From a virus, in the IMG/VR virus record IMGVR_UViG_3300027491_000022, positions 1-21,354 of that record: a DNA stretch of 21,354 bases; one strand, written 5' to 3'. Below the pieces are notes generated by a model. That model saw nothing but the letters and a program-made list of their open reading frames with translations, had not been told where the DNA came from and made no database searches. A program made the translations under genes and the position numbers. This document shows, piece after piece, positions 1,541-21,019 of the stretch (positions are counted from its first letter, which is position 1; each line of letters starts with the position of its first letter).

Positions 1541-3886
1541 TTATCGAAACATTTTTCCAGATTCTAATAGTCTCATTGTGCCAGTTTTTTGTAATAAAAA
1601 TCTATTTATAGCTGATTGAAAATCTTCTCCTTCAAATACACTTACAGAACCATACCGTTCATTAATTTTATTTATGTTTGGTCTATAGTTAGGAGAAGTA
1701 TAACTATTGCCAAAAGTTCCGTTCATTTGTTCTAAACCACCACTACTATTTCTTAAATTAACATCATATCCACCTAAAGTTGGCTCTCCGGGATTGGTTA
1801 ATGATATAAATGGGCTTGGTCTAACCTCAATTGTATATGGTATTTTTTCGCCTGTTCTTTTTAAGACTTTATAAATTGTAATAGGTTCGCCAGATAAGTA
1901 TTGTTTTTGTAGTTCTTGTGCATTAGCAGAATTATTAATTTTTGCTTCAGAAAATTTATTGTAATTAATTCTTTCTGGTAATTCATAGTAAAAATCAAGT
2001 GTACTACCTTTCATGTCATAAACTGCTTTCATATTGTCAACATGCATCTTAACTTGTTCATATACATCATCTTGAATTAAAGGTATTACTCGTTCATCTT
2101 TGTTCAAAGCTTTTTCAATAGGCATATAAACAAACTCTGAGCGACCATTAACTTTTGTTGTTCCATAGTTTTGATTTATACCTTTTTGTACAAATGATTT
2201 TGCTAACTCCGCATTTCCTTTAAAATACACCAGTGCATCTTTGTATGCATTTGCAACAGTTATGTTAAATGCTCCTTGATTTGGTATTGCAACACTTCTT
2301 GGTAAATTAACAAAAGTTTTTGCAAATGATTGTAATTGATTAGCAGAACTATGTTTATTGTTCCATTTTTGTGCTTCAGATTGGGCAAATTGCATTTCTT
2401 CTTTAGTTTGATAAATCATCCCTCTAGCCATTTCTACGGCTTGTTGATCTGATTCTGCAAAAGGCAACAATTCAGTAATTGCATGCTGTAGATGAGCCAA
2501 CCGACTATCACTACTTCTTAATTCAGGAGAAAGTTTCTCTCCTTGATTTGTATCGTACAAACGCTGAATTGTTTGGGCTGCTTTGATTGCTATAGAAGGA
2601 TTGGGATTGCCAAGCTGCGTGGCTAATTGATTTGTATATGCTGGACTTGAAACCGCCATGGTAGATTGCGCTCTAAATTGAGCTTCTTCTAAATTTATAG
2701 GTCGACCAAGATCTTGCGCTTTTTGCAACTCAGAGTTTGTTAACGCATCAAAAGCTTGGTTAACTTCTTTATTAGTTGCTCTTGACATGATAATTGGGTT
2801 TTGTGCATTTGCAGCAAGAAAATTAGTTTGTTCTATAGCTTTATTTGTTTTGTTTTGCTGATTTAAAAATTGTGAATAAAAATCATTAAAGCGAATAGGA
2901 TCTAAATTTGTTTTCAAATTATCAATATCAGTTGGACTAAAAGTATTGTTTTCCATTTTCACTTTAGCTTCTGATATTAAAAGATTTTGTTCTCTTTGTG
3001 TAAACATTTCATAGTTTTGTACAGATCTCAAAGCGGAGTTTCTTGCATTAGACCAATCTGTATAACCTACTTTAATACCAGCAAATTCTTCAGGAACATC
3101 GGTTAATGAGTTTAAAAATGGCTCTAATTTTTTTCCTTTGCTTGCATCAATTGCTTGCCGACTTAACTCATTTGAAAGGTATAATTGTTTCAGTTCTTGT
3201 CTTTTGGCTTCTGCTGCACCTTTTGTTAATAAACCAGATTTTTCTTTTGCATTTATATAACCTATAGTTTGATCGAAGGTCTGTTTAGATTGGAGATTAG
3301 CATTTTCTCGACCACTTAAAGCAAGGTCAGTAATGTTTTTAGCTTGATTAGAAAGGTACAAGTCCGTATTTTCTTTTTCTTGTCTTTTTTGTTGACTTAT
3401 AAGTTGATTATTTAAACTATAAACGTTTTGTTCTAATTTTGCCGTATATTGATTAGCTAATTTAGATTTAATTGTAAAAGGCGCTTGTTCAATAATTTGT
3501 TGCAAACCTTGTTGCATATTTTTTGAATAACTTTGAATTGAGCCATTGGACAATTGATAGTTATTGCTCAAATCTAAATGACCTTTTTGCAGCAATTGTT
3601 GAGCTTGCAAACCTAAGGTTTGTTCTGCCTGGGCACTATAACCTTCTACAAAAGCTTTATCAGCCTCTGTAATAGGAGGCAATAAATTACCACTAGGTTC
3701 CTTTCCTGCTTCTATTCCCCTGAGTTGTTGATATGTTTGAGATGCATTTTGAGCCATTTTTACGCCGATATCTCCTAATAAATTAGAAGAACTAGCAAGT
3801 TGAGTCATTGCGTTTACATAATTCTGTGGCTGCGTTGTAATAGAAAGCCGTTGTGTTGGTTCAAGTGTTTGGATTTCAGTAGCCAT
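1541..3886 (-). CDS. Internal virion (ejection) protein, T7 gp15-like
   Basis: This 781-residue protein is close in length to T7 gp15 (747 residues). It is rich in Gln, Asn and Ser and appears mostly helical, with long polar stretches and no signal peptide or membrane span. It lies between a gp14-sized gene and a gp16-sized gene. T7 gp14, gp15 and gp16 form the internal core that is ejected into the cell to make a DNA channel across the envelope. The start at 3886 overlaps the end of the 171-residue gene by 11 bases, which suggests coupled translation. Position and size carry most of the weight, as no catalytic motif is visible. Confidence 0.75.
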   Translation of the reverse strand: MATEIQTLEPTQRLSITTQPQNYVNAMTQLASSSNLLGDIGVKMAQNASQTYQQLRGIEAGKEPSGNLLPPITEADKAFVEGYSAQAEQTLGLQAQQLLQKGHLDLSNNYQLSNGSIQSYSKNMQQGLQQIIEQAPFTIKSKLANQYTAKLEQNVYSLNNQLISQQKRQEKENTDLYLSNQAKNITDLALSGRENANLQSKQTFDQTIGYINAKEKSGLLTKGAAEAKRQELKQLYLSNELSRQAIDASKGKKLEPFLNSLTDVPEEFAGIKVGYTDWSNARNSALRSVQNYEMFTQREQNLLISEAKVKMENNTFSPTDIDNLKTNLDPIRFNDFYSQFLNQQNKTNKAIEQTNFLAANAQNPIIMSRATNKEVNQAFDALTNSELQKAQDLGRPINLEEAQFRAQSTMAVSSPAYTNQLATQLGNPNPSIAIKAAQTIQRLYDTNQGEKLSPELRSSDSRLAHLQHAITELLPFAESDQQAVEMARGMIYQTKEEMQFAQSEAQKWNNKHSSANQLQSFAKTFVNLPRSVAIPNQGAFNITVANAYKDALVYFKGNAELAKSFVQKGINQNYGTTKVNGRSEFVYMPIEKALNKDERVIPLIQDDVYEQVKMHVDNMKAVYDMKGSTLDFYYELPERINYNKFSEAKINNSANAQELQKQYLSGEPITIYKVLKRTGEKIPYTIEVRPSPFISLTNPGEPTLGGYDVNLRNSSGGLEQMNGTFGNSYTSPNYRPNINKINERYGSVSVFEGEDFQSAINRFLLQKTGTMRLLESGKMFR

Positions 3887-12560: not shown

Positions 12561-12570
12561 AAATTACAAA

Positions 12571-13038
12571 ATGATTGATAATAAGCAATTGCGAGAACAA
12601 ATTATAAAACCTGCTTTAGATAGTTTACAAATGTATAGTGATAACGCTATGGAGTTACTTGTATTTACTTGCGCATGTGAATCGTTAGGTGGCACATACG
12701 TTAAACAAGTCAAAGGGCCTGCACTCGGTATCTATCAAATGGAACCTGCAACTTATACAGACATTTGGGAAAACTATATTAAACATAGTTCGTCTTTAGT
12801 TCAGTTGTTAGCACTAAACTTTGCTTCCCCTTCAATTCCAAACCCAGAACGCATGGTATATGACCTGAGGTTTGCAACGGCCATGGCACGACTACACTAT
12901 CGTAGACGCAGTGAACCTTTGCCCCAACATACTGATATTGAAGCGATTTGGGAATACTATAAAAAGTATTACAACACCCATTTAGGCAAAGCAGAAAAAG
13001 AGGAATCAATTAAACATTACCGGAAGTTTGTAAAGTAG
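12571..13038 (+). CDS. Lysozyme / lytic transglycosylase-like phage protein
   Basis: This 155-residue protein has an SLT-type motif. Cys-Glu-Ser at residues 36-38 is placed where the catalytic glutamate of transglycosylases sits, followed by GPALGIYQMEPAT (49-61), equivalent to the Gly-x-x-Gly-x-x-Gln-x-x-Pro-x-Thr segment of that fold. No signal peptide is present. It could degrade peptidoglycan during entry or lysis, although many phage proteins with this motif have no proven activity. The ATG at 12571 is chosen because GGAG lies ten bases upstream, and the longer frame from 12490 has no ribosome site. It is the only rightward gene in the late half of the window. Confidence 0.65.
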   Translation: MIDNKQLREQIIKPALDSLQMYSDNAMELLVFTCACESLGGTYVKQVKGPALGIYQMEPATYTDIWENYIKHSSSLVQLLALNFASPSIPNPERMVYDLRFATAMARLHYRRRSEPLPQHTDIEAIWEYYKKYYNTHLGKAEKEESIKHYRKFVK

Positions 13039-13207
13039 TTTGATTCGCCATAACATCGCTTAGCTCAATAATATGTAAGCAGTGATTGCACATTAATGTG
13101 GTCACTTGCTTCATATGTGGGCTGCATACCCACGAAACTGGTATATAGTTATGATTATCGCTTATACCGCACACCTTAGCCTTCTCTATCCACATAGGGT
13201 TACACAA
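13010..13207 (-). CDS. Possible small cysteine-rich protein (zinc-ribbon-like)
   Basis: The frame ends at 13010 and overlaps the tail of the rightward lysozyme-type gene by 29 bases. Only the C-terminal part of a longer open frame looks like protein. A TTG at 13207 has GGAGAG five bases upstream. An ATG at 13195 lacks a ribosome site. From the TTG it would be 65 residues with Cys13, Cys28 (VSWVCSPH) and Cys40-Asn-His-Cys43 (MCNHC), a spacing compatible with a structural zinc site. No function is recognised. It may be non-coding. Confidence 0.42.
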   Translation of the reverse strand: MCNPMWIEKAKVCGISDNHNYIPVSWVCSPHMKQVTTLMCNHCLHIIELSDVMANQTTLQTSGNV

Positions 13208-13389
13208 GATATCTCTCCATAAATTACCGTCGCCTATATGATATCCCACAAGGGATGATACAGTATAGAGTAGAGGGGATGGGATGAGGACTTTCCTGAT
13301 TAACCGCCCCTTGAACTGTAAATTATTTTGACAGGTAAAAAGGGAACTGGCCGTCCACCACCAACAATTCTGGGGCACCGGACTCCACT

Positions 13390-13419
13390 CCCCCAGCAAA
13401 AACCCGAAACCCTCCCCCC
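13390..13419 (-). other. G-quadruplex motif on the minus strand
   Basis: On the minus strand the order is G6-A-G3-TTTC-G3-TTTTTGCT-G5. This gives four G-tracts of at least three with loops of 1, 4 and 8 bases. The last loop is slightly longer than the usual limit of seven. The matching C-tracts on the plus strand are 13390-13394, 13403-13405, 13410-13412 and 13414-13419. Such runs are out of character for this AT-rich genome. Confidence 0.55.
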
Positions 13420-13462
13420 GACCGTAGTCTCCGATTGATTTTTTGGTTTTCGCATATAATGA

Positions 13463-13503
13463 GCGCGTGCCTGCGTACGTGTGCATGATGCGTGTGTGCG
13501 TGC
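13463..13503. repeat. Alternating purine-pyrimidine (Z-DNA-type) tract
   Basis: The 41 bases alternate purine and pyrimidine with only a few phase breaks (around 13471, 13488 and the ends), mostly as GC, GT and TG steps (GCGCGTGC, GCGTACGTGTGCATG, GCGTGTGTGCGTGC). Such sequence readily adopts Z-form DNA under negative supercoiling. It lies just upstream of the strong early promoter. Confidence 0.6.
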
Positions 13504-13550
13504 TCTATACCGAATAACTGTTACATTTAATATTATTTTTAAATAAACAC

Positions 13551-13578
13551 TTGACAATGATATTTTGTTGTGTATAAT
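13551..13578 (+). promoter_or_regulatory. Consensus sigma70 early promoter
   Basis: TTGACA at 13551-13556 and TATAAT at 13573-13578 are both perfect, separated by 16 bases. The 25 bases upstream are almost entirely A/T (TTAATATTATTTTTAAATAA), like an UP element. Transcription would start near 13585 and read the small genes from 13615. This is the best promoter in the window and indicates use of host RNA polymerase. Confidence 0.85.
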
Positions 13579-13614
13579 GCGAATCATACAAACAACGTTA
13601 ACAGGAGAAGAGAA

Positions 13615-13821
13615 ATGAATCAAGTATATGTAGAGATAAGCGAACAAGTGTGGCCAGCTTTTTATAGCGACAATCAACAGCAAGCTTTATTAAATGTTCT
13701 TAGCAAAATCCAAAATCAACCATTTTATCGCAATCAAGATATCATGACGTTTGCAGGTTTTTGTAATGACGGCAAAGAATTATTATTTTATGTTCAAAGC
13801 AAATTAAAAGGTCTGAAATAG
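13615..13821 (+). CDS. Small hypothetical early protein
   Basis: This is the first gene after the consensus promoter. From the ATG at 13615 it encodes 68 residues. Upstream in-frame starts (13570) lie within the promoter and are excluded. The ribosome site is AGGAGAAGAG, nine to twelve bases before the ATG. The protein is soluble and mixed, with an N-terminal strand (QVYVEISEQVWPAFY), a helix (NQQQALLNVLSKI) and a C-terminal strand (KELLFYVQSKLK). No family is recognised. Its place suggests a host-takeover or regulatory role, which is inference only. Confidence 0.72.
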   Translation: MNQVYVEISEQVWPAFYSDNQQQALLNVLSKIQNQPFYRNQDIMTFAGFCNDGKELLFYVQSKLKGLK

Positions 13822-13835
13822 AGGCGAAAGCCTCT
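13820..13835 (+). promoter_or_regulatory. GNRA-capped hairpin between early genes
   Basis: GAGGC at 13821-13825 pairs with GCCTC at 13830-13834 around a GAAA tetraloop, and an outer A-T pair extends it. It starts on the stop codon of the 68-residue gene and is followed by TTTAACGGGAGAAGAG and an ATG. The T-run is too short for a confident terminator. RNA stability or ribosome-site presentation is more likely. A very similar arrangement occurs before the gene at 21019. Confidence 0.5.
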
Positions 13836-13851
13836 TTAACGGGAGAAGAGA

Positions 13852-14010
13852 ATGAAATATGTAATAACTTATTTTTTACAAGACATGACTATAGCAATGT
13901 TTCCTACCTATTTTTATTCGAAAGAAGAAGCTCAGACTTATATCGATACTTGTTATAAGTTCGGGCAGCATCTTGACAAAGAATTACGTGTAATTGAATA
14001 CGTAGATTAA
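13852..14010 (+). CDS. Small hypothetical early protein
   Basis: This 52-residue protein starts MKYVITYFLQDMTIAMF and ends LRVIEYVD. It has a short beta strand, a Phe/Tyr/Met-rich centre and a charged helix (SKEEAQTYIDTCYK). The ribosome site GGGAGAAGAG lies directly upstream, in the same leader as neighbouring genes. The family is unknown. The strand-helix-strand layout could be a very small regulatory fold. Confidence 0.65.
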   Translation: MKYVITYFLQDMTIAMFPTYFYSKEEAQTYIDTCYKFGQHLDKELRVIEYVD

Positions 14011-14023
14011 CGGGAGAAGAGAA

Positions 14024-14092
14024 ATGTTAGATAATGCAACTCTTTCCATTTTGGAAACACATCATCGACATATACTCAAATCGTGTCGATAA
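14024..14092 (+). CDS. Possible 22-residue early peptide
   Basis: The ATG at 14024 has the strong leader TTAACGGGAGAAGAGAAATG. The frame (MLDNATLSILETHHRH to CR) stops at 14090-14092, exactly at the end of the 27-bp palindrome. It may be a real short peptide or leader peptide, or a remnant of a longer gene. An overlapping frame from 14034 looks more protein-like but has no ribosome site of its own. Confidence 0.35.
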   Translation: MLDNATLSILETHHRHILKSCR

Positions 14093-14394: not shown

Positions 14395-14940
14395 TTATAT
14401 CCCCTTAAAAAAATCAGCCCGACACACTGAAACATAGCTTTCTTCACGGCCTATTTGAACTTGAGCACCCTCATTTATACGCTTGCCATCAGCGTCAATC
14501 CTAATGTTCATGGTTGCTTTTTTGCTACAAGAACAAATAGTTTTAATTTCGTTAATCTCATCTGCTAAGGACAAAAGATATTTGGAACCTTCAAAAGGTT
14601 CGCCCATAAAGTCAGTGCGCAACCCATAACACAACACTGGAATATCAAATGTATCAACGACACCAGCCAAGAAAATGACTTGTTTTTTGCTAAGAAATTG
14701 CGATTCATCAACAAAAACGCATGACACGCCATCAAATAGACCAGCGTCCAAAACATCCCCATCAAATACGATTGCATCTCTTGTTAACCCTATTCTTGAT
14801 TCTACTTTTGTTCTTCCGACAACAGCAGGAATAAGAGTAAGTACTTTCATCCCACGCTCTTCATAATTATGAGCCGATTGCATAAGACTTGTTGATTTCC
14901 CTGCGTTCATCGCTGCGTAATAGTAAAACAATTTAGCCAT
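14395..14940 (-). CDS. tdk: Thymidine kinase
   Basis: This 181-residue type II thymidine kinase phosphorylates thymidine to dTMP for phage DNA synthesis. The P-loop AAMNAGKST spans residues 9-17. The Walker B motif with catalytic acid is VFVDESQF (75-82). The lasso region GLRTDFMGEPFEGS (106-119) binds thymidine. The zinc lobe has Cys136 and Cys138 (CSC) and Cys173 (SVCRAD). The fourth ligand, usually the His of a Cys-Arg-Lys-His motif, is replaced by Asp. The ATG overlaps the preceding stop by one base (TAATG). It is the last gene of the leftward recombination operon. Confidence 0.95.
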   Translation of the reverse strand: MAKLFYYYAAMNAGKSTSLMQSAHNYEERGMKVLTLIPAVVGRTKVESRIGLTRDAIVFDGDVLDAGLFDGVSCVFVDESQFLSKKQVIFLAGVVDTFDIPVLCYGLRTDFMGEPFEGSKYLLSLADEINEIKTICSCSKKATMNIRIDADGKRINEGAQVQIGREESYVSVCRADFFKGI

Positions 14941-15245
14941 TAGTGTACCTCTGGGGTGTTTTCATAGTCTTGGTATAGCTTTGTGTACTCATTTTGCATG
15001 CGCTTAATAAAATGATTAAAGTTATCAGTGATAATATCCTCTGGGCTTGCGTTAAACAGTACATAAAAAAAGAGGATGCTACAAACATCCTCAACTAAAC
15101 AAAACCCTTTGTAGCCCACGTCTTCATCATTTATCAAGCCTTCTTCTTCTAGATAGTTGTGTATTAAATCAAGCGCATTATCTACAATTTGATAGATGAT
15201 TTCAGCGTGTGCAACATTATCATATTCAAAGTTTAGTTTTTTCAA
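14940..15245 (-). CDS. Hypothetical acidic phage protein
   Basis: The chosen start is a TTG at 15245, which overlaps the end of the annealing-protein gene by 20 bases and has GGGGA about seven bases upstream. The longer frame from 15335 would be read entirely inside the upstream gene. The product has 101 residues, acidic and helical, with a hydrophobic patch near residues 55-65 (VCSILFFYVLF). It may be a small dimeric protein. No family is recognised. Its place between recombination genes and thymidine kinase suggests a DNA-metabolism accessory, without proof. Confidence 0.62.
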   Translation of the reverse strand: MKKLNFEYDNVAHAEIIYQIVDNALDLIHNYLEEEGLINDEDVGYKGFCLVEDVCSILFFYVLFNASPEDIITDNFNHFIKRMQNEYTKLYQDYENTPEVH

Positions 15246-16104
15246 TATTAGTCCCCAACAATTTTTCCAAGTCTTCCTTGGCCTGTTCGTTACTTGCCTT
15301 TTCAGGCTTCTTGAATGCATCGAAAAAGTCTTCACGCTTGCTCATGCCATCTTTAATTGATTTAAATATGCCACGTAACGTAACGATTTCTTGTGGAACT
15401 GTAGCATCAAGATTATGCCCGAGTCTAGCTTCAAGATGTTCTACCTTGACACCGATTTCATCAAACGCAACAACTAAACGTTTAATTTGCTCAGACATTG
15501 GGATCTCACTAGTCTCAAGAGTCTTTCTGCATTGCGCAACTGCTGCCTCAATGACATCACCAGGAATGATTGCGAGAATACAAGCTCTCAAGCGTCTTGC
15601 GCCCTGGTTAGCAACCAGCTCGTAGATGTCCCTTGAGTCTGTAAGCTTTTGCTTTCCCTTCTTTGTGTCACGTGTGTGGGGCACATGGAAAACCTTAGTC
15701 ACTCTAGTGTTAGTCTGCAAGTCAATTGCGTAAGCCTCAGCAATACTAACACCATTCGCCTGACTAACTTCACGTACGCCACAATCCAAGTTACCCCATG
15801 ACTGCGCCATACTCTCTGCTAGTCGAATACTTGCACCCTCAACTAATTGGCCACCACGGGGGTAAGCATACATCGCTTGTTCTGCAAGATACGGACGTTT
15901 GCATGACTCTAAAATCTGCATATAAGCTTCATGCTGGTTTCGTGGAAACTTTTTAGCTATGACGTATTGTGCTTGTACTTCTGCGACCGCTCTTGCTTCA
16001 CCTGTTGCCTGCAACGGGTTTTCAGTCGTTTGTTTAGTTCCAGCAAATCCGAGTTGGAACTCGCCATTTGTGTACTCTGGACTGTATGTTTTAATTTCGT
16101 TCAT
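15226..16104 (-). CDS. Probable single-strand annealing (recombination) protein
   Basis: This 292-residue protein belongs to a phage family usually found beside RecE-like exonucleases. Recognisable conserved blocks are AEVQAQYVIAKKFPRN (41-56), the CKRPYLAEQAMYAYPRGG block (68-85), QSWGNLDCGV (101-110), an HTRDTKKG-type loop (143-150) and the core ANQGARRLRACILAIIPGD (165-183). The C-terminal third is charged and flexible. Annealing proteins coat single strands made by the exonuclease and pair them with complementary DNA. Function is inferred from context and family memory. The ATG overlaps the preceding stop region with a MNEIK start. Confidence 0.65.
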   Translation of the reverse strand: MNEIKTYSPEYTNGEFQLGFAGTKQTTENPLQATGEARAVAEVQAQYVIAKKFPRNQHEAYMQILESCKRPYLAEQAMYAYPRGGQLVEGASIRLAESMAQSWGNLDCGVREVSQANGVSIAEAYAIDLQTNTRVTKVFHVPHTRDTKKGKQKLTDSRDIYELVANQGARRLRACILAIIPGDVIEAAVAQCRKTLETSEIPMSEQIKRLVVAFDEIGVKVEHLEARLGHNLDATVPQEIVTLRGIFKSIKDGMSKREDFFDAFKKPEKASNEQAKEDLEKLLGTNIEKTKL

Positions 16105-16342
16105 TTTCTACCTCGACTTCATCTGTAAGAATTCCTTTCGTATCGATAGCGCATTGCACAAATCCAGCAGTAAACGCCATTTTGAGAAATTGTAAAAATT
16201 CAGGACGATTAATTTCTTTAATATTGTTTTCCTTTATCATTTCTTTAATTGATGCGTGTAAATCATAAAAACTTTGTAAATGTCCTGTAAGTTCATAGAC
16301 ACTGCGGGAGAGTTTTTCTATATCATTTTTAATTTCGTTCAT
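16091..16342 (-). CDS. Small hypothetical protein in recombination operon
   Basis: This 83-residue helical protein begins MNEIKNDIEKLSRSVYEL and ends DEVEVENERN. It has a polar N-terminal coiled-coil-like helix and a more hydrophobic middle (FLQFLKMAFTAGFVQCAI). Both ends overlap neighbouring genes by 14 bases, so translation is coupled. No family is recognised. It may be an accessory of the nuclease and annealing pair. Confidence 0.7.
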   Translation of the reverse strand: MNEIKNDIEKLSRSVYELTGHLQSFYDLHASIKEMIKENNIKEINRPEFLQFLKMAFTAGFVQCAIDTKGILTDEVEVENERN

Positions 16343-16574
16343 AATCTCTCATCCTCATATCAAAGTCGTTTAACATGGATTGCATTTCTTCGATTTGGTC
16401 ACGAATAAATATAATCGCATCCTCTGATATATATTTTGTTTGTTTGTGTTCAATTGCCATCATCGTCATCAAGCCTTGCATATAAGTTAAATCACGCTTG
16501 AATTGTTCAACAGTATTAACAAAAAGCTGTCTTTGCGACTCGATTAATTTACTTTGTCTATCTATGATATTCAT
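16329..16574 (-). CDS. Small helical protein in recombination operon
   Basis: This 81-residue protein starts at the ATG at 16574, which overlaps the nuclease stop (ATGA). In-frame ATGs up to 16598 are less likely because they lie inside the nuclease gene. The sequence is nearly all helical, with Met- and Gln-rich heptad-like patterns (YMQGLMTMMAIEHKQ, IEEMQSMLNDFDMRMRDY), so a coiled coil is likely. No family is recognised. Confidence 0.68.
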   Translation of the reverse strand: MNIIDRQSKLIESQRQLFVNTVEQFKRDLTYMQGLMTMMAIEHKQTKYISEDAIIFIRDQIEEMQSMLNDFDMRMRDYERN

Positions 16575-17380
16575 TGGTTTAAGTCCCATTCCGCCCACGC
16601 CGGTGGTGTTAAAGTTTTCACTTTCGACTTTAAAAAACTGTCGTCCTCGAATTCATGTTTAAGTTTTTGTGATAAGCTTGCAAAAAGTCTTAAACCATAA
16701 TCTATTGCTTGTTCATCAAGCGCATAAAGCACGACTTCATGACTTGTTTTATCGCAACAAATGAACACAAACTTTTCAAATTCTTGGCCTGCTTTTTCTA
16801 ATGCAATCTTTGCCATCGCTGCCTGTAAGAAATAGCCATAGTCTACACAAGATTTTTGAAAAGCTTTGTATGTCACGTCTTTACATGTCTTCACGTCTGC
16901 AACAATACCCCCTTTGATAATGTCTGGACGTGATTTAAATATAAAACCAGTGTCTGAGTCATTCCAGAATATCGATTTCTCACACTCTGCGTCTTCAAGA
17001 ATTGAGCGCGCTATCTTGTCGCTTATAATCGCTTTTGCCATGTCTGCCGATTTAGCATAAATATTTGCATCAACTGCGGTTATGTTTTGCTCTGTTGTAT
17101 AACTGTTAAACTTTTCAAACTCTTCTTTGCCCTTATTGCTACGTTTATTGAATTTAGGCGCTGGGATGTATTCACCCATTTTGTGGGGTTCTAGCAAAAT
17201 TGTATGCACTAATTGACCAAGCATAAAATCATCTGATTGCTTAAACTCACGATTCTTTAAAACATACTCATTATAAAACCTTACTGGTGAGTCTCTATAA
17301 GTGATTAAAGCACTTTTAGAGTAGCCATCACTTGAGTGATACTCTTCATTACTAATATCCAATAATACATTTGTTTCCAT
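16571..17380 (-). CDS. RecE-like PD-(D/E)XK exonuclease
   Basis: This 269-residue protein matches the C-terminal nuclease domain of RecE (exodeoxyribonuclease VIII), which degrades one strand from double-strand ends. Visible motifs are GQLVHTILLEP (55-65) with His59 and Glu64, FKSRPDII (148-155) with catalytic Asp153, and VADVKTC (160-166) with Asp162-x-Lys164. A YGYFLQAAMA helix (181-190) carries the conserved Gln. The start at 17380 has AAGGAGAACAAAAATG. It leads the leftward operon and pairs with the annealing protein for recombination or concatemer repair. Confidence 0.85.
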   Translation of the reverse strand: METNVLLDISNEEYHSSDGYSKSALITYRDSPVRFYNEYVLKNREFKQSDDFMLGQLVHTILLEPHKMGEYIPAPKFNKRSNKGKEEFEKFNSYTTEQNITAVDANIYAKSADMAKAIISDKIARSILEDAECEKSIFWNDSDTGFIFKSRPDIIKGGIVADVKTCKDVTYKAFQKSCVDYGYFLQAAMAKIALEKAGQEFEKFVFICCDKTSHEVVLYALDEQAIDYGLRLFASLSQKLKHEFEDDSFLKSKVKTLTPPAWAEWDLNQ

Positions 17381-17480
17381 TTTTGTTCTCCTTTTCTTGA
17401 TTTTCGATCATAATAATATTATATTTAACTATATGTGTAAATGCACATTTTTAAATTTTATTATAACTGAGGGTAAAATT
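17381..17480. promoter_or_regulatory. Divergent control region with palindrome
   Basis: This 100-base AT-rich spacer separates the leftward nuclease operon from the rightward Cro-like gene. A leftward -10 (TATAAT, minus strand of 17418-17423) has only a poor -35. A rightward TATAAC lies at 17462-17467, also without a clear -35. ATGTG at 17433-17437 and CACAT at 17444-17448 form a 16-bp inverted repeat between the two possible promoters, a natural operator site for the Cro-like protein. Weak -35 elements suggest regulated promoters or an activator. Confidence 0.5.
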
Positions 17481-17675
17481 ATGACAGTTGAAGATGTTTA
17501 TAATCATTTTGATAAAAGATGGACAGAAGTGTCCAGAGGTACGTGTATGAGTCTTTCATCGTGGCGTATTTATCGCATGTGTGGCTACGTTCCGATGCGA
17601 CAACAACGCATGATTGAAGCTATCACGCAGGGAGTTTTAAAAGCAGATTTAGCACACGCAAAAAGGGCATCGTAA
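17481..17675 (+). CDS. Cro-like DNA-binding regulator
   Basis: This 64-residue protein starts at 17481 with GAGGG upstream. The sequence has the pattern of small Cro/YdaS-type regulators: an N-terminal helix (VEDVYNHFDKRW), a helix-turn-helix (about 17-33), then GYVPMRQQRMIEAITQGVLKA (about 35-55), where Val-Pro, the basic helix and the GVLKAD end are typical. It would bind the palindrome in the adjacent spacer and control divergent transcription. It is first in the operon that ends with the replication genes, like cro in lambda. Confidence 0.7.
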   Translation: MTVEDVYNHFDKRWTEVSRGTCMSLSSWRIYRMCGYVPMRQQRMIEAITQGVLKADLAHAKRAS

Positions 17676-17836
17676 TGACTACACAAAAGGATTTGTCGAC
17701 TGAAGAAAAGCTGAAGAATGTATTCCGAGCTACTCTATTAGACCAAGGAGTAGCTGGGTATGACATTGACAAAATTGCAGATGCATTGGTATCTAATCTT
17801 TTAATCATGTTGAGTTTAAATTATGCAGACAAATGA
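17675..17836 (+). CDS. Small hypothetical protein at the cII position
   Basis: The ATG overlaps the stop of the Cro-like gene by one base (TAATG). The product has 53 residues, acidic and helical (STEEKLKNVFRATLLDQ, then DKIADALVSNLLIMLSL). It overlaps the next gene by 14 bases. It occupies the place of lambda cII but is too short and has no clear helix-turn-helix. Function unknown. Confidence 0.65.
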   Translation: MTTQKDLSTEEKLKNVFRATLLDQGVAGYDIDKIADALVSNLLIMLSLNYADK

Positions 17837-18050
17837 GATAATGAAATTGATGGGGATTGTATTTTTATTGTGCTTGAGCTTTTTTTTAATGTCATCGAGC
17901 GTCTATATATTAAACAAGACATTTAGTCATGATATAAAGCACGTCAACGTACACTTAGATAGTGATTACATTGCTGATCAAGTGTCGGAAGCACTACTGG
18001 ACACTAATGTGGCTAGTGATTTAGAAGAGATTAAACAAGCGAGCAACTAA
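17823..18050 (+). CDS. Small single-span membrane protein
   Basis: This 75-residue protein has one hydrophobic segment at about residues 10-30 (MGIVFLLCLSFFLMSSSVYI) followed by an acidic soluble tail (DSDYIADQVSEALLDTN). There is no signal-peptidase site I would trust, so an inner-membrane anchor is more likely than export. The ATG at 17823 overlaps the previous gene, and starts at 17841 or 17850 are possible. No family is recognised. A role in host exclusion or membrane attachment of replication is speculation. Confidence 0.65.
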   Translation: MQTNEIMKLMGIVFLLCLSFFLMSSSVYILNKTFSHDIKHVNVHLDSDYIADQVSEALLDTNVASDLEEIKQASN

Positions 18051-18254
18051 ATGGAAATAATAACTCTGCAAGAAATTGAGGCTTTAGAGCGAGAAATTAA
18101 TACTATTTTAAAACCTTTGATACTTGAGCAAATCAAGGGTTTTATAACTGTTTACTGTGATAGAGACAGCAAACTTTATCCAAAATCATTGCAAATGATA
18201 GCGATTGCAGTATCTGAAATCGGGAGGGATTTACACGAAAGAGATTTAATATAA
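18051..18254 (+). CDS. Small hypothetical protein
   Basis: This 67-residue protein starts immediately after the previous stop (TAAATG). It is helical and amphipathic (TLQEIEALEREINTILKPLI, then LQMIAIAVSEIGRDLHERDL). No motif is recognised. It is the last gene before a hairpin and the repeats that precede the replication genes. Confidence 0.62.
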   Translation: MEIITLQEIEALEREINTILKPLILEQIKGFITVYCDRDSKLYPKSLQMIAIAVSEIGRDLHERDLI

Positions 18255-18258
18255 GATT

Positions 18259-18283
18259 AAAGGCCAACCGCAAATTGGCCTTT
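18259..18283. terminator. Perfect 9-bp hairpin upstream of the replication genes
   Basis: AAAGGCCAA pairs perfectly with TTGGCCTTT around a 7-base loop, five bases after the stop of the 67-residue gene. The A-run and T-run are part of the stem, giving terminator-like features in both directions, but the T-tract is short. It could limit readthrough into the replication genes, making an antitermination step possible. Confidence 0.5.
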
Positions 18284-18292
18284 ATGAGCAAT

Positions 18293-18369
18293 TAACAAAC
18301 TTTAAAAGTAGGATGATTACTAATCACTTTACTAATAGGACGTACGCTAATCACTTTACTAACAGGACG
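18293..18369 (+). repeat. Tandem 23-base repeats before the replication initiator gene
   Basis: CTAATCACTTTACTAA-T/C-AGGACG occurs at 18320-18342 and 18347-18369, with 22 of 23 bases identical and a 27-base period. A degenerate third unit lies at about 18296-18316 (ACTTTAAAAGTAGGATG). They end 14 bases before the ATG of the O-like gene. They could be iterons, regulator sites or an RNA leader. Nothing else is visible in this 128-base gap besides the hairpin. Confidence 0.6.
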
Positions 18370-18382
18370 GGTAAATTATATC

Positions 18383-19393
18383 ATGAATGATAAAAATAAC
18401 AACAAAAATAATTCAGCATTAAATCAAACAGATGTAACTAAATCAAAGAAAAAGGAAACTTTTATCGTGTTGTACGAGCGATATTTACTTGATGGCAATT
18501 TAGACTTGTTAGATAAATTGTTCTATGCGTTTTTTGTATCCTTACATTGCGCTGGCCGTGTTATCGATATTACAAATTCACAATTAAGAGAAAAAATTAA
18601 AGTTAGTCCAGACGAATTTATTTCGATAGACAAGGTTAAAAGAAGTTTAAAAAAACTTGAAGACTTGGACTATATCAAAAGATACACAAATAAAACCAAC
18701 AGCGACAGAATAATTGTCCCAGTAATAAAGCATGATTTTGACGAGATTGACGAATCAAAAGCTGATGTTTTCTATGATAGATACGGCAATGAATATCACC
18801 CTGTCGATAAAAATGCACCTAGGGGCAACGGTGCACCAAGGGGCAAATTTGCACCACCCCCAGTGCACGGGTGCACCACATATAATATAAAAGATAATAT
18901 AAAAGAAAATAATAACTTCGTTATTACAAAAAACGAGTTTGCAGATGTTATTCAGAAAGCTCAAGAGTGTTTAGAAAAAACAAAGGAGAATCTTCCAAGC
19001 ACATCAAGCGAGATTGTTCCGTATGAATACCAAGATACAAATTTACCTGCCTTAAAAAAATCAACAACACTTACACAGTTAGAAGAAATTAATTCTCTTA
19101 ATTTACCCAGTGAGTTTTTAGAGCAGTTGATTTTGATACGCAAAGCCAACAAAGCATCGGTAAACAAAAAAGCCATGCAAGCGGTTTATCAAGAATTAGT
19201 GAAATTAAAAAATGCTGGACTTGATTTAAACGAATGTTTAAACATGTATGCCAATTGTGGGTGGAAAGGTTTTGTTGCTGATTGGTTTATAAATTCGATG
19301 GCTAAAAAGCCAAGCACTCATTTAGATCATAATTCGATTCAATGGGGTAAGGATATGGAATCAGATCCATTTTTTCAAAATTTATTGGATTAA
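18383..19393 (+). CDS. Replication initiator, lambda O-like
   Basis: This 336-residue protein has the layout of lambdoid O proteins. The N-terminal winged-helix domain is at about residues 25-115 (LLDGNLDLLDKLFYAFFVSL, then VKRSLKKLEDLDYIKRYT). A low-complexity linker follows (about 143-166, NAPRGNGAPRGKFAPPP), and then the short NIKDNIKENN seen in many prophage initiators. The C-terminal domain (about 230-320) ends in GWKGFVADWF, the region expected to contact the helicase loader. The linker is encoded by 18-bp repeats that are the likely origin. The next gene is P-like. The ribosome site is weak. Confidence 0.75.
   Translation: MNDKNNNKNNSALNQTDVTKSKKKETFIVLYERYLLDGNLDLLDKLFYAFFVSLHCAGRVIDITNSQLREKIKVSPDEFISIDKVKRSLKKLEDLDYIKRYTNKTNSDRIIVPVIKHDFDEIDESKADVFYDRYGNEYHPVDKNAPRGNGAPRGKFAPPPVHGCTTYNIKDNIKENNNFVITKNEFADVIQKAQECLEKTKENLPSTSSEIVPYEYQDTNLPALKKSTTLTQLEEINSLNLPSEFLEQLILIRKANKASVNKKAMQAVYQELVKLKNAGLDLNECLNMYANCGWKGFVADWFINSMAKKPSTHLDHNSIQWGKDMESDPFFQNLLD
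18814..18925. other. Candidate replication origin: 18-bp iterons plus AT-rich element
   Basis: TGCACC occurs at 18814, 18832 and 18850, an exact 18-base period. The first two units continue as A/T-AGGGGCAA. Two further partial copies lie at 18864 (TGCACG) and 18872 (TGCACC). Directly downstream, 18878-18925 is almost pure A/T with repeated ATAATATAAAAGA on the plus strand. In lambda, O binds 18-bp iterons inside its own gene next to an AT-rich melting region. The same arrangement is seen here. Confidence 0.7.
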
Positions 19394-19398
19394 ATAAC

Positions 19399-19980
19399 AT
19401 GAATGATAAATTTAATGAACAGTCTTACAATGTCATTAACTCTTTATTTGCTAAACTGGCTGGTATATTTCCAGCATTTTCTAAAGCATGGCCGACGGCA
19501 GTAGAGTTTGAATCAGCAAAAAAGAACTGGTTGCTTGCTTTAGTTGAAAATGACATAAACACTTTGGCTAAATTGCAGATTGGTTTAAAAAAAGCTAGAG
19601 CGCTAGGTAGGCCTTGGATACCCAGCATCGGAGAATTTATTGAATGGTGTAAGCCAAGACTTGAAGACTACGGCATGCCCGAATTGTTTGAGGCTTACAA
19701 AGAGGCTTGTCGCAATGCACACGATGTTAAATACAATTATCCATGCAATTGGTCACATCAAGCGGTTTATCATGCTGCAATCGAAACTGGGATATACGAA
19801 TTAGAGAAAAAGTTTGATGCGTTTAAAGTTTACTATCAAAGAGCCTGTCAAACCGTTTTTGATGGGGGTACATTGAGAGATTTACCAAAACTTATATCTC
19901 ACAACCAAGAAAAAGAAAAGTCGCCCGTAGTGGCTATAAATGCGTTAAACGATATGTTAAAACAACTTGGTAAAAAATAA
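19399..19980 (+). CDS. Helicase loader, lambda P-like
   Basis: This 193-residue protein matches the lambda P family. Motifs include NSLFAKLAGIFPAFSKAWPT (about 14-33), KNWLLALVEN (about 42-51), RPWIPSIGEFIEWC (about 71-84) and the WSHQAVYHAAIETG block (about 118-131). It would take DnaB from the host and deliver it to the O-origin complex. It begins five bases after the O-like stop, as in lambda, and ends the rightward operon. Confidence 0.9.
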   Translation: MNDKFNEQSYNVINSLFAKLAGIFPAFSKAWPTAVEFESAKKNWLLALVENDINTLAKLQIGLKKARALGRPWIPSIGEFIEWCKPRLEDYGMPELFEAYKEACRNAHDVKYNYPCNWSHQAVYHAAIETGIYELEKKFDAFKVYYQRACQTVFDGGTLRDLPKLISHNQEKEKSPVVAINALNDMLKQLGKK

Positions 19981-20048: not shown

Positions 20049-20450
20049 TTAAAACGGTATGCCGTCGTAAATCTCATTTGTAACTGTTTTCCGTGGTGCA
20101 ACGTTACCTAATCTCTCCTCTGGTTTTTGCAGTATGCTGAAATCGTTAAGCATAATCTTTGTAGAGAGTTTTTGACCTCCTGTGCTGTCTTGGTATTCTT
20201 GATAGTCTAAAGAGCCGTCTAGGTATATCTTTGAGCCTTTGGTAACTATCTTTGATGCGTTCTCTGCAGTCTTTCCGAAAGCCACAACGTTGTGCCACAA
20301 AGTGGCTTCAAATGGTTCGCCGTTCGGGTCTTTTCTTTTTACCATCGTTGCGACTGGAAAAGTCACAATTGGCAATCCTGATTTTGCTTGTTTAAGTTCA
20401 GGCGTTTGACCTACAATGCCCAGAATGTGTACTTTAGCAAGTGTTTTCAT
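20049..20450 (-). CDS. ssb: Single-stranded DNA-binding protein
   Basis: This 133-residue SSB has a recognisable OB fold (VHILGIVGQTPELK, then LWHNVVAFGKTAENASKIVT, KGSKIYLDGSLDYQEY), a short linker, and the acidic tip YDGIPF, equivalent to the DDIPF that binds partner proteins. It protects single strands during replication and recombination and may work with the P-like loader and annealing protein. The start overlaps the HTH gene stop (ATGA) after AAGGAGAG. It is the last gene of its operon. Confidence 0.95.
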   Translation of the reverse strand: MKTLAKVHILGIVGQTPELKQAKSGLPIVTFPVATMVKRKDPNGEPFEATLWHNVVAFGKTAENASKIVTKGSKIYLDGSLDYQEYQDSTGGQKLSTKIMLNDFSILQKPEERLGNVAPRKTVTNEIYDGIPF

Positions 20451-20758
20451 TTCTCTCCTTTTTTGTTTTTTTTATTGACTTTTGAGTTATCTACACAAAA
20501 ATCCACAGATTCTGTGGATAAGTTAATCATAGGTTTGGTGGTTAATAATGTTTCTAAGCTAACACTTAACGCCTCAGCAAGTTTTAGTAAAGTTGTTAAT
20601 TTTGGGTTTGTTTGTTCGTGAAAACACATGTGCCAAGCGCAAGATTTACTTATATTCAAAGACTTGGCTACCTCTCCAAAGCTTTTATTATTAACAACCA
20701 TGTAATGCTTAACATGGCTAACAATGTTTAAGCGTATAGTTTCTATATCTGTTTCCAT
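20447..20758 (-). CDS. Xre-family HTH transcriptional regulator
   Basis: This 103-residue protein has a classical helix-turn-helix. SFGEVAKSLNISKSCAWHM (26-44) aligns with helices 2 and 3, then NPKLTTLLKLAEALSVSLET (51-70) with the rest of the domain. The C-terminus is a short Lys/Asn/Ser tail with no cleavage or dimerisation domain seen in full repressors. It probably regulates early promoters, perhaps through the palindrome at 21143-21169 upstream of its own operon. Whether it acts as repressor or Cro-like switch is open. The start has GAGGTAATAAAATG. Confidence 0.85.
   Translation of the reverse strand: METDIETIRLNIVSHVKHYMVVNNKSFGEVAKSLNISKSCAWHMCFHEQTNPKLTTLLKLAEALSVSLETLLTTKPMINLSTESVDFCVDNSKVNKKNKKGEK
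20487..20521. promoter_or_regulatory. DnaA-box pair and 19-bp palindrome inside the HTH gene
   Basis: TTATCCACA (consensus DnaA box) lies on the minus strand at 20513-20521. A one-mismatch box TTATCTACA lies on the plus strand at 20487-20495. Between them ATCCACAGA-T-TCTGTGGAT (20501-20519) is a perfect inverted repeat of 9-base arms. All lie within coding sequence near the gene end, so function is not proven. Confidence 0.45.
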
Positions 20759-20767
20759 TTTATTACC

Positions 20768-21019
20768 TCAAGCCGTGAATTCACGATAAGATTTTTTCAT
20801 AATAAAAACCATGTCGCCGTTAGGCAAAGTTCCACCTACAAATTCACCTTTCCATTCTAATTTTTGAGCAAGCATTTTAGCGGCCAACATCATGTTTTCG
20901 GGATAATCCAGCGAGTAATCTTGATCAATAGTTAATGAAATACCATCGCCAATAAATGCTTTGTAGCGAGAGCCTTTAGTGTTTGTTGGTGCTAAGTATT
21001 TTACTTGTATTGCTTTCAT
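20768..21019 (-). CDS. Conserved hypothetical phage protein
   Basis: This 83-residue protein belongs to a widespread phage family of unknown function, recognised by its start (MKAIQVKYLAPTNTKGSRYK) and the GEFVGGTLPNGDMVFI end. It is mostly beta with one helix (ENMMLAAKMLAQKL). It is the first gene of the leftward HTH-SSB operon. The ribosome site is CAGGAGAAAAG. Role unknown. Confidence 0.78.
   Translation of the reverse strand: MKAIQVKYLAPTNTKGSRYKAFIGDGISLTIDQDYSLDYPENMMLAAKMLAQKLEWKGEFVGGTLPNGDMVFIMKKSYREFTA

Follow-up and report, generated by a model that had tools for sequence, protein, structure and literature searches.

Gene order of the early region

We analyzed IMG/VR virus record IMGVR_UViG_3300027491_000022, a linear DNA of 21,354 nt (hereafter, the window) from a phage that has a T7-like tail and is known from metagenomes alone. 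In the window, two divergent early operons meet directly, with no cI repressor gene between them: a leftward arm that opens with a nuclease gene and a rightward arm that opens with a cro-like gene. Because the record is linear and 21 kb long, the window is probably a fragment. A viral contig scan yielded a 32,528-base contig of the same phage (G001, 99.99% identity across the overlap), which is near-complete: it covers the genome minus about 600 bases of one repeat, the other copy of which is known. The resulting genome is a circle of ~33.1 kb consisting of a late block (~24.1 kb), a repeat, an early block (7.4 kb), and a repeat. G and L numbers refer to the related viral records and loci that we compared with the window (for example, L040 lies within G019). 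The features of the early region, from left to right, are as follows.

14395..14940, minus strand: thymidine kinase (PF00265, E = 2.9e-41), last gene of the leftward arm
Between thymidine kinase and the 292-residue gene, leftward arm: 101-residue protein
15226..16104, minus strand: conserved 292-residue protein (PHROG 3657, function not assigned, E = 3.8e-101)
Between the 292-residue gene and the nuclease, leftward arm: two small genes
16571..17380, minus strand: RecE/exonuclease VIII-like nuclease (PHROG 412, E = 1.3e-52), opens the leftward arm
17381..17480: divergent control spacer, exactly 100 bases between the two first start codons
17481..17675, plus strand: Cro-like repressor of 64 residues (PHROG 409), opens the rightward arm
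17675..18254, plus strand: three small genes (53, 75, and 67 residues) in the place of cII
18258..18284: hairpin or terminator-like repeat upstream of the O-like gene; L003 has a hairpin too
18383..19393, plus strand: O-like replication initiator (PHROG 678, E = 9.9e-16)
19399..19980, plus strand: lambda P-like helicase loader (PF06992, E = 2.5e-32)
20049..20450, minus strand: single-strand DNA-binding protein (SSB; PF00436, E = 1.1e-24), convergent operon
20447..20758, minus strand: 103-residue single-domain helix-turn-helix (HTH) protein without a peptidase domain (HTH_3 and HTH_26 below cut-off)
20768-21019: PHROG 3199 protein, in the convergent operon with SSB and the HTH protein

This gene order agrees with a sequence-only reading of the same DNA, which had described arms that meet with no cI and only 100 bases between them, O-like and P-like genes in the rightward arm (upheld here by PHROG 678 and PF06992), and a remaining HTH regulator 3 kb away in a convergent operon. 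That reading had also assigned a RecE-like nuclease and an annealing protein to the leftward arm, and here the two halves of the claim fared differently. The nuclease half stands on PHROG 412; in addition, PF12684 and PF12705 scored above cut-off, and the NCBIfam exodeoxyribonuclease VIII model matched with E = 8e-32, yet below its full-length cut-off. Judged by these family matches, the nuclease is the RecE-like half of a RecE/RecT or Exo/Bet pair. The annealing label found no match in sequence or fold and is unproven. The 292-residue protein is conserved (51 to 99% identity in 11 relatives), but nothing in Pfam scored above threshold, there was no NCBIfam, Bet, or RecT match, hhalign against the lambda Bet profile gave a probability of 0.4% (no match), and a fold search returned no match to a solved fold. 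Mycobacterium phage Sparky has a homologue annotated as "putative RecT"; this annotation and the position of the gene suggest that the protein may be the single-strand annealing partner of the nuclease.

The Cro-like protein and the divergent spacer

Taken alone, the window Cro-like protein has weak matches (PHROG 409, E = 1.5e-4; Pfam P22_Cro, 17.7 bits, below the cut-off of 30.2), so we gathered orthologues from other contigs. All six orthologues matched PHROG 409, and three individually passed the P22_Cro cut-off. A profile built from the six matched the solved structures of P22 Cro (1rzs, E = 3.8e-8) and N15 Cro (2hin, E = 4e-7). N15 Cro (6on0) was also the top Foldseek match of an AF2 model of the window protein (pLDDT 88.7; TM 0.82/0.85, probability 1.00). 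By family similarity and predicted fold, the product of 17481..17675 is therefore a Cro repressor of the P22/N15 type, and the proposal that a Cro-like gene heads the rightward arm is borne out.

A nuclease gene directly abutting cro also occurs in L003 (nuclease 92% identical), L004 (51%), L035, L040, and L037. The nucleases of L040 and L037 have no match to the window nuclease, and the cro genes of both loci score above the P22_Cro cut-off.

Between the window and L003, about 80 spacer bases are identical, whereas third codon positions are identical at only 70% in exo and 63% in cro. Since spacer identity exceeds that of the neighboring synonymous positions, the most economical interpretation is that the spacer DNA is itself under selection. 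A promoter scan returned a candidate rightward promoter (TTGATT-17-TATATT, 17397-17425) and, overlapping it, a candidate leftward promoter (TTTACA-17-TATTAT, 17441-17413); a palindrome (ATGTG-N6-CACAT, 17433-17448) is a candidate operator. Each of the L040 and L037 spacers contains two nested antiparallel promoters that match the consensus at 11/12 positions, an arrangement that 0 of 1,000 shuffles reached. The window promoters do not exceed shuffles by themselves; therefore, we dropped them as stand-alone evidence and use them only jointly with L040 and L037 and with the conservation of the spacer.

Search for a CI repressor and an integrase

Given that the window is probably a fragment, we tested for cI and integrase genes on the longer G001. 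Neither a CI-like gene nor an integrase gene was recognisable in G001 or elsewhere among the clade records. Family searches found no tyrosine integrase (PF00589) or serine recombinase (PF00239) in G001 to G004, and no S24 repressor (PF00717) in G001 or the other clade records. HTH_3 gave a single weak match in G001, which is the 103-residue HTH protein of the window, and no match in G004. A lambda-type CI/Cro bistable switch would include a CI protein (HTH plus S24) encoded opposite cro, together with an integrase, and by predicted gene content neither is present. The 32.5-kb contig G001 rules out a missing cI as an artefact of fragmentation, as does G019, the record that carries L040. G019 has a direct repeat of 127 bases at its two ends and therefore probably represents a complete, self-closing genome; it has neither an integrase nor an S24 repressor.

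The 103-residue protein matched an RstR-like family with E = 9e-4, below cut-off. In G024, a close relative with ~94% DNA identity in the flanks, the HTH gene and most of the adjoining gene are deleted. This loss indicates that the HTH gene is accessory and does not supply the half that the switch lacks, and we disfavor the protein as a core repressor. A search of contigs from 84,980 species of bacteria and archaea found no relative of the portal protein; thus, it yielded neither a prophage nor a host.

Control of the early region and phage lifestyle

We consider it likely that, of a lambda-type switch, only the lytic half remains in the early control region, regulated by Cro, and that the phage is strictly lytic. 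The recombination and nucleotide operon, which runs from exo to thymidine kinase, and the replication operon cro-O-P would be driven by two promoters that overlap back to back in the spacer. The first product of the rightward operon, Cro, would then bind the spacer and lower both operons later in infection. A single spacer site would serve both arms, with the two promoters mutually exclusive and both shut by Cro. Lambda Cro turns down the early operons at oR and oL, and we propose this mechanism by analogy with that action and because of the nested promoters in L040 and L037. Lacking both CI and integrase, the phage would have no route to classical lysogeny. The sequence-only reading had left the choice between a rearranged or reduced switch and a strictly lytic phage, and the absence of recognisable CI and integrase genes from the near-complete genome and the clade records supports it.

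Several points weigh against strictly lytic, Cro-only control. These searches would miss any repressor or partition gene that belongs to an unrecognised family, and G001 lacks ~600 bases of the second inverted repeat. The absence of portal relatives covers one genome per host species and does not exclude lysogeny. The window spacer promoters are within chance, being matched in ~11% of shuffles; the nested pair was not seen in the L004 spacer, which is shorter; and the operator is represented by candidate palindromes only.

The switch could instead be rearranged, with the 103-residue HTH protein serving as a lysogeny or pseudolysogeny repressor that acts in trans on the spacer in a phage maintained as an extrachromosomal circle. 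The single-domain, Xre/RstR-like character of the protein would suit this role, and G019 has a comparable HTH gene as the second gene of its cro operon. However, no integrase or resolvase was found in G001, and the deletion of the HTH gene in G024 and the lack of an HTH_3 match in G004 lead us to favor a strictly lytic phage and to regard a rearranged switch as quite unlikely.

The history of the region might also differ while its present-day working is as we propose, if cI was deleted recently from a temperate ancestor near two relatives, G018 and Acinetobacter phage MD-2021a. G018 is provirus-like and encodes, in this order, Cro (YdaS/Cro type), a divergent CI (HTH plus S24), a nuclease, the 292-residue protein, and an integrase. 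The same order recurs in MD-2021a, with cro, a phage repressor, a homologue of the 292-residue protein, and a recombinase; in both phages a stretch of ~2.7 to 4 kb lies between cro and the nuclease or 292-residue gene. A deletion would thus have such a cro/cI arrangement, with the 292-residue gene further along the same operon, to start from. Set against this, the G018 cro encodes a different, YdaS-type protein, and the abutment of nuclease and cro is common to contigs whose nucleases are 51% identical or unrelated, which indicates that the abutment is old. We regard a recent deletion as improbable.

That the operons are mere neighbors with separate unregulated promoters, the Cro-like protein acting elsewhere, would fit the chance-level promoters of the window but is very improbable, given that the spacer is far more conserved than adjoining synonymous positions and that the abutment recurs with different nucleases.

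Replication module and neighboring genes

The O-like gene contains three GCAACGGTGCACCA-like iteron-like repeats (18825-18878) followed by an A+T-rich stretch, and a replication origin probably lies inside this gene. An O-like initiator with internal iterons and a P-like loader make this, by predicted content, a lambda-type replication module. At the same place in L003 (645-2449, compared with window 18383-19980), the O-like and P-like genes are largely different, with only part of O in common; the gene pair appears to have been swapped as a cassette between the window and L003.

The order of the three small genes at 17675..18254 is kept in L003 and L004, and none of the three has a CII match. 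Among the leftward-arm genes, there was no match to lambda N, gam, or cIII. Outside the early region, a gene divergent from that of the small terminase (12565-13038) encodes a 157-residue PHROG 3108 protein, a possible endolysin in which a lysozyme-like motif (ESLGG...GPALGIYQMEP) is visible by eye.

Inverted repeats around the early region

The early segment lies between long inverted repeats.

13206..14024: inverted repeat, copy 1 (~817 to 819 bases), flanking the early segment
13551..13578, plus strand: perfect consensus sigma-70-type promoter (TTGACA-16-TATAAT, 12/12) within the repeat, reading into the early segment
From ~100 bases past the right end of the window: inverted repeat, copy 2, bordering TerL

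Both ends of G001 are reverse complements of window sequence: its start corresponds to 13206-13328 and its end to 13926-14024. The ~817-base repeat therefore occurs twice, in opposite orientation, beside p157/TerS and beside TerL. An independent contig, G021, covers exactly the unique part between the copies (G001 124-24183). The two inverted copies separate two unique segments. Inverted repeats flank the early segment in eight related contigs (G001, G004, and six related or more distant ones; repeat loci at window 13206-14024, L027, L001, L028/L004, L075-L079, and L081), and they are 0.5 to 1.2 kb long in the four of these eight contigs where both ends are visible. G019 has the nuclease/cro abutment without an inverted repeat; thus, the two features are independent.

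In addition to the promoter, the repeat carries two small genes. Because the middle of the second copy is absent from the contig, we infer the promoter there: if that copy is complete, two identical promoters would face inward on the early segment. One of the small genes (68 residues, window 13615-13821) has 100% DNA identity with L003 even though neighboring genes differ, and the repeat may be homogenised by recombination.

Both possible joins of the repeat were seen (G001 versus G002, G014 versus G015, and G024); in G002, for example, the thymidine kinase side is linked via the entire repeat to TerL, not TerS. Inversion would produce such a pattern, with both relative orientations of the early and late blocks. 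Since an assembler can join identical repeats to either flank, these joins do not show inversion, and we rejected flip isomers as proven. In both L035 (6586-7155; G015) and L034 (1825-2391; G014), a gene for a serine resolvase/invertase borders the early block, and the G015 and G014 blocks were assembled in opposite relative orientation. Near TerL, L027 encodes a probable nuclease (1358-1798), which weakly matches the Holliday junction resolvase family PHROG 5702, and a protein resembling endonuclease VII (2768-3355; PF02945, E = 3e-18).

Tentatively, and with considerable doubt, we suggest that long inverted repeats, each carrying the same strong inward promoter, make the early/replication segment between them an invertible cassette, and that recombination flips the segment during replication. 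The segment holds the recombination genes, cro, O with the putative origin, P, and SSB. The phage-encoded nuclease, together with its partner, could aid recombination between the repeats, and flipping would perhaps yield amplification of the double-rolling-circle type. Cro-only control from a central spacer would make expression independent of orientation.

Comparison with known systems

Like the window, lambda (NC_001416) has divergent early arms, with cro heading the rightward arm, recombination genes in the leftward arm, and O and P genes with iterons within O. In lambda, 6 kb holding bet, gam, kil, cIII, N, rex, and cI lie between exo and cro, whereas the window exo abuts cro, and none of lambda cI, rex, N, cII, cIII, and gam was found in the window phage. 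The window nuclease is RecE-like, and the gene order of the left arm is not that of lambda.

G018 and MD-2021a resemble the window in that cro faces an operon bearing the 292-residue protein (~57% identical). They differ in having a phage repressor or CI between cro and the 292-residue gene, plus a site-specific recombinase or integrase. G018, the only related record with both CI and integrase, has cI opposite cro as in lambda. Because temperate phages with the same 292-residue gene have the lambda order, the order without cI is a coherent alternative rather than a sequencing accident.

A virulent phage in which cro persists although there is no lysogeny module has precedents in kind, such as DT1. 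The cro-ori region of this virulent Streptococcus thermophilus phage was reportedly described by Lamothe et al. in 2005, a paper cited in PMC3952083. DT1 is like the window phage in being virulent and retaining cro beside the replication module, and it is unlike the window phage in being a Gram-positive siphophage without the divergent nuclease/cro layout. The compact nuclease/cro layout that recurs in several lineages, with exchangeable nucleases, is new. It indicates that a lambda early layout can work without its lysogeny half, with cro facing the recombination operon over one short, highly conserved site, and it makes the lytic role of Cro testable without CI.

The inverted-repeat frame is also new, and this architecture is more unusual than the layout without cI. 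Among the papers listed in our literature searches, there was no phage precedent for an inverting early segment, only herpesvirus, chloroplast, and yeast plasmid cases. The genomes of herpes simplex virus 1, chloroplasts, and the yeast 2-micron plasmid have inverted repeats and invert (PMC3147054). The window phage shares with them two unique segments parted by inverted repeats; it differs in being a tailed phage in which inversion is only a candidate. If the segment does invert, this would be an unusual plan for a phage genome and a new one for tailed phages.

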